Origin: an uncultured Bacteroidales bacterium
Lineage (GTDB): Bacteria; Bacteroidota; Bacteroidia; Bacteroidales; UBA932
DNA: 64,000 nt
Direction: 5' to 3'
Assembly: GCA_947168065.1 (NCBI GenBank)
Contig: CAMVKH010000002.1
Coordinates: 1-64,000, forward strand
In this document: piece after piece, positions 58,230 to 59,957 of the stretch
How the letters are laid out: every line of letters starts with the position of its first letter
How positions within the stretch are numbered: the first letter of the stretch is position 1
Program-made: the position numbers and the translations under genes
The notes under the pieces: model-generated
Told to the model about the DNA's origin: nothing
The model's input: only the letters and a program-made list of their open reading frames with translations
Database searches by the model: none

Positions 58230-58267
58230 TAATAAAAGAAAAAGGAGCCGTTCGAAAAAACGGCTCC
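58230..58267 (-). terminator. Intrinsic terminator of the 44-residue peptide gene
   Basis: Nine-base stem GGAGCCGTT (58244-58252) and AACGGCTCC (58259-58267). On the minus strand it is followed by a T-rich run. It lies 42 bases after the stop of the small gene at 58309. Confidence 0.85.
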
Positions 58268-58308
58268 CAGCCGGGCTTCGTGCAGCATATTACATCAGCC
58301 GTTCAGGA

Positions 58309-58443
58309 TCATCGGCGGTGTCGCCAATATGCCTGAACGAACTCCTTACGGCCGTTTCGCCTGCGCCAGTAGGCGTGGACGAAAACGGGGTTACCATACG
58401 TACACAGTTGTACGTAGAAGCAGATCGTTATCTTAACGTTCAT
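58309..58443 (-). CDS. Basic 44-residue micropeptide with a structured leader
   Basis: The ATG at 58443 opens a 44-residue frame beginning MNVKITICFYVQLCTYGNP. It contains an internal repeat, VFVHAYWRRR (20-29) and EFVQAYWRHRR (34-44), so aromatic and Arg residues dominate and the peptide is strongly basic. The unit is complete: a -7 box at 58598-58605, a leader of about 150 bases with nested inverted repeats, the frame, and a terminator. I recognise no family with certainty. It could bind nucleic acid or membranes. The ordered signals around it support a real gene despite the small size. Confidence 0.7.
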   Translation of the reverse strand: MNVKITICFYVQLCTYGNPVFVHAYWRRRNGRKEFVQAYWRHRR

Positions 58444-58593
58444 AAGTAAAAGCAATAAATGGTAAACGAGAACGACAGAAAGGATCCCCCTCAGTACCAG
58501 CCCGACTAAAACATAATAAGAGCACCTTCACCCACCGGATCCGGTGCTCTTTTGTTTACCATTTTGATCAGGTATTGCCCGATCTGCTTTTAC
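58444..58593 (-). promoter_or_regulatory. Structured 5' leader of the 44-residue peptide gene
   Basis: On the minus strand the predicted transcript begins with GTAAAAGCA (58593-58585) and ends with TGCTTTTAC (58454-58446) two bases before the ATG; these are perfect complements. Inside are AAATGGTAAAC (58564-58554) with GTTTACCATTT (58467-58457), and inside those AGAGCACC (58550-58543) with GGTGCTCT (58526-58519). The three nested pairs make one long structure that would cover the start region. No known riboswitch family is recognised. Confidence 0.7.
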
Positions 58594-58597
58594 GCAA

Positions 58598-58605
58598 CAA
58601 AGATA
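58598..58605 (-). promoter_or_regulatory. -7 box TATCTTTG for the leader and micropeptide
   Basis: The plus strand reads CAAAGATA. With the usual spacing, transcription would start at about 58591-58594, which is where the leader's terminal stem begins. Confidence 0.6.
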
Positions 58606-58972
58606 AACACATTTTCCAAAAACGCAACCGCAAAAAAGCAATTTGTTTCGTTTCGCCAGAGCACCTCCGGACCGTCATAATCGATTTAATCCCACATCCC
58701 GGCGCTCTTGCGCAGGGGCTGAAAGCGTTTCTCCTCAAGGTTCGCGGCAGGCGCAGCCTGCGCGTCCGTCCCTTGACGGCGAACTTCTCCCTTTTAGCTG
58801 TCGCTACGCTCCGCTAACGGTCGAAGAACCTGCGCCGTCACGAGACGGAACTCCCGCTTGGCCGCGTATTCCCTGCCGCTCACAAATCGTCGCCCCGCTG
58901 TCAGCCCCTGCTGCTGTTCGCTCCTGCTTGGCGGCGGGGTTTTCCTCGGCCGGAAACGGAGGGGAGTGAAAG
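58606..58972. other. Intergenic stretch of about 370 bp, no supported gene
   Basis: GC-rich sequence between the micropeptide promoter and the ParD promoter. Small open frames exist on both strands but have no recognisable domain, promoter or terminator. Visible structure includes GCGCAGCCTGCGC near 58752-58764 inside an imperfect pairing of GGTTCGC (about 58739) with GCGAACTT (about 58779). It may hold a decayed element. Confidence 0.5.
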
Positions 58973-58978
58973 TTTGCA

Positions 58979-59003
58979 AAATATAAGAATAGTTCTTATA
59001 TTT
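58979..59003 (+). promoter_or_regulatory. Toxin-antitoxin operator over the parDE promoter
   Basis: An 11-base perfect inverted repeat AAATATAAGAA (58979-58989) and TTCTTATATTT (58993-59003) with spacer TAG. It overlaps the -7 box TATATTTG (58997-59004), and a -33 TTTG lies at 58973-58976 with 20 bases between the boxes. Its position suits autorepression by the antitoxin. Confidence 0.75.
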
Positions 59004-59009
59004 GCCATT

Positions 59010-59258
59010 ATGAAGACAACAACCATAGCACTTGGATCGCATCTGGAGGCCTTTGTGCAGGAGTCTGTCACTTCCGGGCGATACAACAATGTCAGCGAAG
59101 TAATCAGAGCCGGAGTCAGACTGCTGGAAGAAAAGGAGAAGGCGCTGATGCAGCTCGATGCAGCTCTTCTGGAAGGAGAGATGAGTGGATATACTGTGAT
59201 GACGAAAGAAGAACTGATCAAAGAGTTCGAAGATGAAGCAAATACTATTCTCCGGTAA
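59010..59258 (+). CDS. parD: ParD-type antitoxin
   Basis: 82 residues from the ATG at 59010 (MKTTTIALGSHLEAFV); a longer frame from 58974 would overlap the promoter. The first 45 residues form a ribbon-helix-helix DNA-binding domain with SGRYNNVSEVIRAGVRLLEE, the ParD signature. The C-terminal half should wrap the toxin. The -7 box ends 5 bases before the ATG. It overlaps the toxin gene by 26 bases. Confidence 0.9.
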   Translation: MKTTTIALGSHLEAFVQESVTSGRYNNVSEVIRAGVRLLEEKEKALMQLDAALLEGEMSGYTVMTKEELIKEFEDEANTILR

Positions 59259-59517
59259 GGCCCGGCAAGATTTACTGGCGATCAAGACCTATACGGAATC
59301 TCTCTGGTCAGCGCAGCAGTCCATTTATTATCGCGACCTGTTGCTGGATGAAGGCTTCTCCATTCCTGAAAGAGAAGATATCATCTCATATCCGATATAC
59401 AAAGCGTATTCGTATACGCATTGCGGACATCACTTTATCTTCTTTCAATCGACAGGGAGCGAAATACGAATAGTTCGTATTCTTCACGAGAAAATGAGCT
59501 TTGCGAATCATCTTTAA
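59233..59517 (+). CDS. parE: RelE/ParE-type toxin
   Basis: 94 residues of the RelE/ParE fold: FSGKARQDLLAIKTYTESLW at the N-terminus, a Tyr-rich middle (YPIYKAYSYTHCGHHFIFF), and a C-terminal strand EIRIVRILHEKM that carries the conserved Arg and His of ParE-type toxins. Pairing with a ParD antitoxin favours a gyrase-poison type over an mRNA-cutting type, but this cannot be decided by eye. Confidence 0.88.
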   Translation: MKQILFSGKARQDLLAIKTYTESLWSAQQSIYYRDLLLDEGFSIPEREDIISYPIYKAYSYTHCGHHFIFFQSTGSEIRIVRILHEKMSFANHL

Positions 59518-59597: not shown

Positions 59598-59743
59598 TTT
59601 CACATTTACAATTTTTAATATCCGTTTAAAAACGTTTATAAACGGGTATACTCGTTTTGCCTATGGATAAACTAGGGCATAAGGAATACCTTGCACCGTG
59701 AAAAGAAATTCCAATTGTTTGAGTTTATATCGCAAAAATGTGC
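59598..59743. other. AT-rich gap between the two toxin-antitoxin modules
   Basis: No gene. One hairpin, CCGTTTA (59622-59628) with TAAACGG (59639-59645), is visible about 100 bases upstream of the hicA promoter, followed by AT-rich sequence. Confidence 0.5.
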
Positions 59744-59751
59744 TATATTTG
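59718..59751 (+). promoter_or_regulatory. hicAB promoter
   Basis: TTTG (59718-59721) and TATATTTG (59744-59751), with 22 bases between the boxes and the hicA ATG 15 bases further on. Confidence 0.65.
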
Positions 59752-59765
59752 TAATCGAATCGAAG

Positions 59766-59957
59766 ATGACGTGGAATGAGTTCAGGAAGATGATTCTCCG
59801 CAAGGGTTGGAAATTGGAGCGGCATGGTGGGAAACACGATATCTATCGTAAAACTGGACGTGCTGATCCGTTACTGGTAGAAAGGCATTGGAACGAAGAA
59901 ATCAAACCGAACTTGCAGAAGAGACTTTTCAAACAAGTCGATGGTGACGAAAAGTAG
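59766..59957 (+). CDS. hicA: HicA family mRNA interferase toxin
   Basis: 63 residues from the ATG at 59766 (MTWNEFRKMILRKGWKLER). It is a dsRNA-binding-like HicA fold with catalytic His24 in GGKHDIYRK. A longer frame from 59691 starts upstream of the promoter and is discarded. Six bases separate it from hicB. HicA toxins cut mRNA and are held inactive by HicB. Confidence 0.92.
   Translation: MTWNEFRKMILRKGWKLERHGGKHDIYRKTGRADPLLVERHWNEEIKPNLQKRLFKQVDGDEK

Follow-up and report, generated by a model that had tools for sequence, protein, structure and literature searches.

Within the 64,000-nucleotide stretch of an uncultured Bacteroidales bacterium analysed here (contig CAMVKH010000002.1, positions 1 to 64,000; hereafter the window), the minus strand carries a unit of about 350 nt that probably belongs to a family of genes for small peptides with mRNAs translationally locked from birth. 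The evidence is comparative. Relatives of the unit appear to conserve its fold while rewriting nearly all of its sequence, and the pairing across 49 units is strong comparative evidence for an mRNA family that keeps fold over sequence and whose fold even fixes N-terminal codons. The original prediction, a structured leader ahead of a micropeptide with possible cis-regulatory function, is partly supported when taken as a whole.

Layout of the unit

All the parts named in the original prediction were confirmed in the window sequence on the minus strand. They are given below in the direction of transcription, with the analyses that identify them in brackets (A8 is an alignment of 13 distinct leaders); hairpin P2 (58584-58566) and the leader/3'UTR pairing were absent from that prediction.

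58628-58644, minus strand: upstream promoter element AAATTGCTTTTTTGCGG, common to the units of this genus and to some other promoters
58627-58625, minus strand: TTG of the -33 region, 19 bases ahead of TATCTTTG
58598-58605, minus strand: -7 box TATCTTTG of a Bacteroidetes primary-sigma promoter (consensus TAnnTTTG)
58585-58593, minus strand: strand a, GTAAAAGCA, inferred 5' end of the transcript (pairing test, A8)
58566-58584, minus strand: small hairpin P2 (GATCGGG...CCTGATC), between strands a and b (leader fold, A8 helix 2)
58554-58564, minus strand: strand b, AAATGGTAAAC, 11 bases (pairing test, A8 helix 3)
58518-58551, minus strand: hairpin P4, AAGAGCACC...GGTGCTCTT, with arms at 58551-58543 and 58526-58518 (fold, A8 helices 4 and 5)
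58499-58507, minus strand: leader strand AGTCGGGCT, pairing with the 3'UTR, followed by GGTACT, with conserved UAC/UAG (pairing test)
58457-58467, minus strand: strand b', GTTTACCATTT, here nested within a/a' (pairing test, A8)
58446-58454, minus strand: strand a', TGCTTTTAC, exact complement of GTAAAAGCA, ending two bases 5' of the ATG
58309-58443, minus strand: ORF of 44 aa, MNVKITICFYVQLCTYGNPVFVHAYWRRRNGRKEFVQAYWRHRR, with its ATG at 58443 (ORF translation, pN/pS)
58269-58277, minus strand: 3'UTR strand AGCCCGGCT, partner of 58499-58507, directly before the terminator (pairing test)
58243-58268, minus strand: intrinsic terminator stem-loop, followed by TTTTTC

The consensus of Bacteroidetes promoters is given in the available text of PMC7366714 as TAnnTTTG together with TTTG at -33, and from the position of the promoter the transcript would start at strand a. 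As had been predicted, the 5'-end sequence GTAAAAGCA has an exact complement, at 58454-58446, two bases before the ATG of the 44-residue peptide, and a terminator closes the unit at 58268-58243. Two further nested pairs had been proposed, of 11 and 8 bases; the 11-base pair stood, and the hairpin pair was corrected to 9 bases. The AGTCGGGCT/AGCCCGGCT helix consists of 9 pairs, one of them G-U. A reading of the unit on the opposite strand was ruled out, as the minus strand is the one that agrees with promoter, ORF and terminator alike.

The leader folds with -61.7 kcal/mol (z -4.8), none of 200 dinucleotide shuffles being as good, and the whole unit with -145.9 kcal/mol (z -6.8; 0 of 100 shuffles as good). 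These shuffle z-scores indicate that the fold is more than chance, and relatives show the same pairing in other letters. Only two combinations of TAnnTTTG, an ATG at this spacing and an ORF of 35-70 aa occur within the window, with two-helix scores of 46.8 for the unit and 33.2 for the other.

Relatives and the curated set

Within the genus, 9 of 40 genomes contain the peptide at E <= 0.01, and a covariance model built from 13 leaders (R1) detected 20 leaders, spread over 11 of the 40. With stricter filters at the level of the family, R1 found leaders in 10 of 249 genomes, all of the same genus. At E <= 0.001 a peptide profile (A6) had matches, many of them weak, in 37 of 398 family genomes belonging to 6 of its 25 genera. 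The window's own genome (G000) holds at least five units. Named MAGs with loci came from rumen, omasum and deer samples, and 13 of the 14 loci belonged to uncultured Bacteroidales or Bacteroidia, the remaining one to Novosphingobium. Profile searches across the order (393 genomes) and the phylum (395 genomes) gave no convincing member outside the family except L128, searches based on the peptide being blind to units that carry unrelated peptides. L128 is a class-level relative from another family; its leader is short, and the hairpin and the 3'UTR parts are missing. Judged by eye, the 5' end of this leader appears to pair with the first codons or near the start codon. Among viral contigs the leader DNA pattern had no match, and the peptide profile had a single one, in a Novosphingobium-like phage, without a leader fold (by eye) and without an R1 match. 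A tblastn search of phage records with one relative returned none.

For the tests described below we curated a set of 49 units. The window's genus contributed 19 of them and the family's other genera 28, and the last 2 (L069, L070) come from named Bacteroidales MAGs. Units were left out for an early frameshift (L012), an unclear start (L089), a non-ATG start (L094, L116), decay or rearrangement (L095, L111), truncation (L030/L057, L038, L042), weak or partial matches (L005, L019-L022), a position outside the family (L071, L072, L123, L124, L128), or as near copies of kept units (L109, L110, L119, L127 and the first unit of L031/L043). Three were kept unaltered: L015 (frameshifted), L014 (early stop) and L013 (CTG start). 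A TAnnTT[TC]G box lies 148-185 nt 5' of the start codon in each of the 49 units, reading TAnnTTTG in 47 and TAnnTTCG in 2 (where a unit had two boxes, the one nearest 162 nt was taken), and 38 units have a TTG 17-23 bases ahead of the box.

A further unit outside the 49, at L050:3286-3765, was met through the promoter motif. It has an 11-base leader/3'UTR pair, AAAGCCGAAGG/CCTTCGGCTTT, followed by GTACT, and carries the familiar peptide ending; it was one of two promoter candidates examined, and the other had neither a leader/3'UTR pair nor the peptide ending.

Pairing between cognate segments

In an alignment-free test with 5,000 permutations, the 5' segment of each unit was scored against its own 3' segment and against those of all other units. 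Cognate segments exceeded non-cognate ones across the 49 units with z values of 17.8 for helix a, 17.9 for helix b and 6.4 for the leader-3'UTR pair, the control segment pairs giving -1.6, -1.4 and -0.0. Narrower segments gave z 8.4 for the leader-3'UTR pair (controls 1.2, -0.9 and -1.1), and RNAduplex energies agreed (z -18.8 for a, -10.1 for b and -4.7 for the leader-3'UTR pair; controls 0.3 and 1.1). Taken unit by unit, the cognate partner beat 95% of the non-cognates in 30 of 49 units for a, 37 for b and 9 for the 3'UTR pair. The 3'UTR strand fits other units as well, since it is often CCATCCG-like, a sequence partly common to units. No convincing a or b helix was found in L126.

In A8, standard pairs make up 96.3% of 402 cells, compared with 74.1 +- 1.3% when the 3' letters were redealt and 30-46% when the structure was slid, and double changes occur in 24 of 32 pairs (10 of 10 in helix b); as A8 was fitted to the structure of the model, these figures lean toward that structure. 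Covariation of the stems upstream of homologous peptides, proposed earlier as a check, was borne out by cognate helices that, as a group, far exceed non-cognate ones and by these double changes. The expectation that homologous peptides come with a paired leader held in so far as all 49 units have the box and pair as a group; L128, with its short leader, departs from it.

Oppositions of G-U and of A-C number 10 v 14 in helix a and 26 v 32 in helix b, that is, there is no G-U excess, and 27 v 11 in the leader-3'UTR pair. The lack of an excess in helices a and b is odd under a purely RNA-level constraint, and the outcome of a G-C/A-T strand-symmetry test speaks against explaining these two helices simply at the RNA level. 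Where perfect Watson-Crick arms change in concert, the cause may be very strong selection, a constraint on both strands, or copying from arm to arm.

Topology around the start codon

In the window's type, the commonest in its genus, b' lies upstream of a' and is nested, an arrangement that rests on A8. A strict classification of the 49 units gave 19 crossed, 1 nested and 29 unclassed, the last with weak scores or touching helices. In the 19 crossed units b' is found past a', its first base falling anywhere from 3 bases before to 27 bases after the first base of the start codon, so that a/b/a'/b' would form an H-type pseudoknot that contains or adjoins the ATG. The close relatives L075 and L100 differ in codons 2-4, where TCTAATACT is replaced by TCCATAACA (with an Asn-to-Ile substitution), and strand b has changed to match, which shows how the fold would drive the N-terminal protein sequence. 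For the second unit of L002 the pairing scan gave a longer b' match inside the ORF than upstream of the ATG.

The encoded peptide

Over 11 units (55 pairs) pN/pS was 0.36, with pS 0.47 and pN 0.17. The C-terminal part had pS 0.55 and pN 0.12 (ratio 0.22) and the N-terminal part pS 0.37 and pN 0.25, all values being uncorrected. Purifying selection on the encoded basic peptide is apparent from these counts. Together with the pairing tests, they uphold the prediction that a genuine small peptide has its start region hidden by a structured leader, for which Rfam gives no match.

The isoelectric point is above 9.5 in 45 of the 49 peptides, and a 12-residue N-terminal stretch above 1.6 on the Kyte-Doolittle scale occurs in 18 of 49, a hydropathy that looks unlike that of typical membrane toxins. 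The peptide motif is V-x-V-R-x-Y-x-R-x-x-N-G-x-x-x-x-V-R-x-H-x-R, and the peptide repeats a V-x-V-R-x-Y-x-R pattern. The predicted fold has three strands and a C-terminal hairpin, at modest confidence (pLDDT 70.1, pTM 0.33). The peptide of the unit (P0001) had no match in Pfam or NCBIfam at E <= 10, and in PHROGs it matched PHROG 21154 at E 0.033. Relatives reach this same PHROG, whose function is unassigned, at 1.7e-5 and 4e-4, and one relative scored 17.0 bits to WXXGXW (PF12779), below the cut-off of 18. A second type, P0002 (MKTVTIKL...), has the same leader plan and is not matched by the family profile in the same genome; it is present in 3 of 398 family genomes, all of this genus.

Genomic setting, mobility and decay

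The unit is flanked by a phosphoglucose isomerase gene (Pfam PGI) and by ParD/ParE and HicA genes. These toxin-antitoxin genes lie directly upstream of the unit, at 58974-59514 and 59691-59954 of the window (Pfam). An attenuator of pgi, the gene downstream, was ruled out: the terminator separates the two, pgi comes with a TATATTTG box of its own, and relatives stand beside other genes.

Homology between the window and several relatives extends from about 58256 to 58644, and since these limits are the terminator and the upstream promoter element, the unit behaves as a discrete cassette. In three species (L108, L109 and L110) about 515 alignment columns containing one unit are nearly identical and both flanks are unrelated; this unit seems to move as a cassette. 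At apparently the same site in two species, a type A unit is followed by a type B unit in L002/L044 (the window's genome), and two type B units are found in L031/L043. The promoters and ORF ends of the type B units of L043 are nearly identical, and their leader helices differ throughout. An intergenic dispersed repeat at 58731-58893 is 92-98% identical to stretches beside two other units of the same genome (L126, L127) and 90% identical to one in another species (L006). Decayed copies (L012, L014, L015, L038, L042 and L057) show frameshifts, an early stop, truncations or deletions, some of them with an intact leader.

Proposed mechanism and alternatives

In the model that we favor, strand a, made first, would pair with a' just before the ATG emerges, and as a/a' would close once a' has been transcribed, no ribosome could start on the nascent RNA. 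Strand b and the 3'UTR strand would then complete the lock. With a third leader strand paired to the 3'UTR directly ahead of the terminator, the ORF would be enclosed in a closed RNA, and this long-range pair would stabilise the finished molecule. Translation would need a later event: a nuclease could trim the 5' or the 3' strand, an RNA or protein could act in trans, or the molecule could refold. On the best reading this new family would work like the type I toxin messages hok, AapA and TimP, and by analogy with these the peptide probably does harm, or acts potently, when produced at an unsuitable moment, the least certain step of the model.

A more far-reaching version, which we regard as possible though doubtful, is that the family represents a novel class of RNA-encased genes with three leader strands, a start codon locked by a pseudoknot and a 5' leader tied to the 3'UTR, in which helices are rewritten freely, almost always from Watson-Crick to Watson-Crick, so that neighbouring copies become mutually orthogonal. 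If this were true, every copy would be a locked message with its own address, moving horizontally and opened only by its cognate factor, and the RNA fold would dictate the start of the protein.

The locking model was weighed against several other readings. A true type I toxin-antitoxin system, with the peptide as toxin and with an antisense RNA, encoded on the opposite strand or elsewhere, that targets the opened mRNA, strikes us as rather unlikely. A small-peptide mRNA whose start region is predicted to be sequestered by intramolecular structure, locked with 5'-3' pairing as in AapA and hok, would be at home in such a system, as would several and tandem copies per genome (at least five units in G000), the decayed ORFs of L012, L015 and L014, and the adjoining ParD/ParE and HicA genes. 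On the other hand, most of the peptides have no clear membrane segment, and the transcribed regions of the 49 units contain 6 antisense TAnnTTTG boxes compared with 5.7 +- 2.4 in shuffles. With antisense -7 boxes at shuffle level there, a type I antitoxin is not indicated, and since the transcribed region has no antisense promoter excess and toxicity is putative, we do not file the family under type I toxin-antitoxin systems. Autoregulation, in which an Arg/aromatic-rich peptide would bind its own leader core and keep the leader shut, has a lower likelihood still. The peptides are very basic and bear a motif, with a beta-hairpin predicted at modest confidence (pLDDT 70), and the conserved RNA core near the 3'UTR-pairing strand is a putative binding site, but in L002 and its relatives L043 and L098 the RNA plan goes with a peptide missed by the family profile in the same genome.

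The long structured leader that hides the start region would also suit a ligand-sensing riboswitch or an RNA thermometer controlling the peptide, which we consider highly improbable given that stem sequences are freely replaced, that Rfam has no match, and that conserved unpaired residues are few (TA[CG] at ATG-70..-30 occurs in 45 of 49 leaders, uncorrected for chance). Control by a ligand, as first proposed, thus draws little from these data, the conserved leader core being small and consisting of the 3'UTR-pairing strand followed by UAC/UAG; control by temperature, proposed alongside it, is unlikely for a leader of -62 kcal/mol with very stable helices. We give an equally low chance to pairing that serves the DNA, the inverted repeats of a mobile cassette acting as recombination or replication structures. 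Such a role would fit helices a and b without a G-U excess, the near-identical block of about 515 columns in L108, L109 and L110 with its differing flanks, and the different unit arrays at one site in L031/L043 and L002/L044. It does not fit strand a right after the promoter, a' at the start codon and a third strand just before the terminator, nor a 3'UTR pair that favors G-U over A-C (27 v 11), as expected of RNA. Finally, a functional non-coding RNA with an incidental ORF is the reading to which we assign next to no probability. The fold is strong enough for it, but the 6S-like RNA with a secondary peptide that had been suggested fails on the lack of an Rfam match and on a peptide under purifying selection, pN/pS being 0.36 overall and 0.22 in the C-terminal part.

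Significance and comparison with known systems

Rfam 15 had no match in the window at gathering score, and a search of 58230-58660 at E <= 10 gave four sub-threshold matches, the best with E 0.87 and none near gathering score. A survey of structured RNAs in the human microbiome that includes Bacteroidetes lists 99 candidates possibly overlapping small genes (PMC8040213); its available text, tables apart, does not describe this plan, and an uncharacterised entry there may coincide with it. Putative type I systems have been described in B. thetaiotaomicron (available text of PMC7366714). Among the results listed by full-text literature searches, none described the family.

If the locking model is right, silent small-peptide genes would be widespread in an uncultured gut lineage of Bacteroidales, such genes having been missed so far owing to a short ORF and an RNA nearly without conserved sequence. 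The family would also be an extreme case of compensatory evolution, and a clean system in which co-transcriptional folding prevents premature translation in Bacteroidetes. These bacteria rely little on Shine-Dalgarno pairing.

In hok/Sok, long-range 5'-3' pairing silences the full-length mRNA, covariation is conserved among copies, and chromosomal copies are often decayed. The window family resembles it in its 5'-3' pairing, covariation and decayed copies, and differs in that no mok-like overlapping frame was identified, no Sok-like antisense promoter was found in the transcribed region, and its peptide is unrelated to that of hok/Sok by any search made. In AapA/IsoA of Helicobacter pylori, as in the window family, there is intramolecular pairing, including a long-distance 5'-3' interaction, that reaches the first codons, and the full-length AapA3 RNA is inert through its 5'-3' interaction and is opened by 3' trimming (available text of PMC6733600). 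AapA/IsoA belongs to a different phylum and encodes a different peptide, whereas the window family has a and b on separate segments of the leader, which can form a pseudoknot around the start codon, and no antisense RNA was found. The timP message forms mutually exclusive folds, one with a pseudoknot, and its toxin is an inner-membrane protein (PMC11228461, in part). The timP pseudoknot marks the translationally active form, whereas that of the window family would enclose the start codon; the window family also has a long-range 3'UTR pair, and none is described for timP in the available portion of PMC11228461. As in the window family, the leader of TimP/TimR (timPR) of enterobacteria sequesters the ribosome site, and a pseudoknot in that leader matters for its control (PMC11228461, in part).
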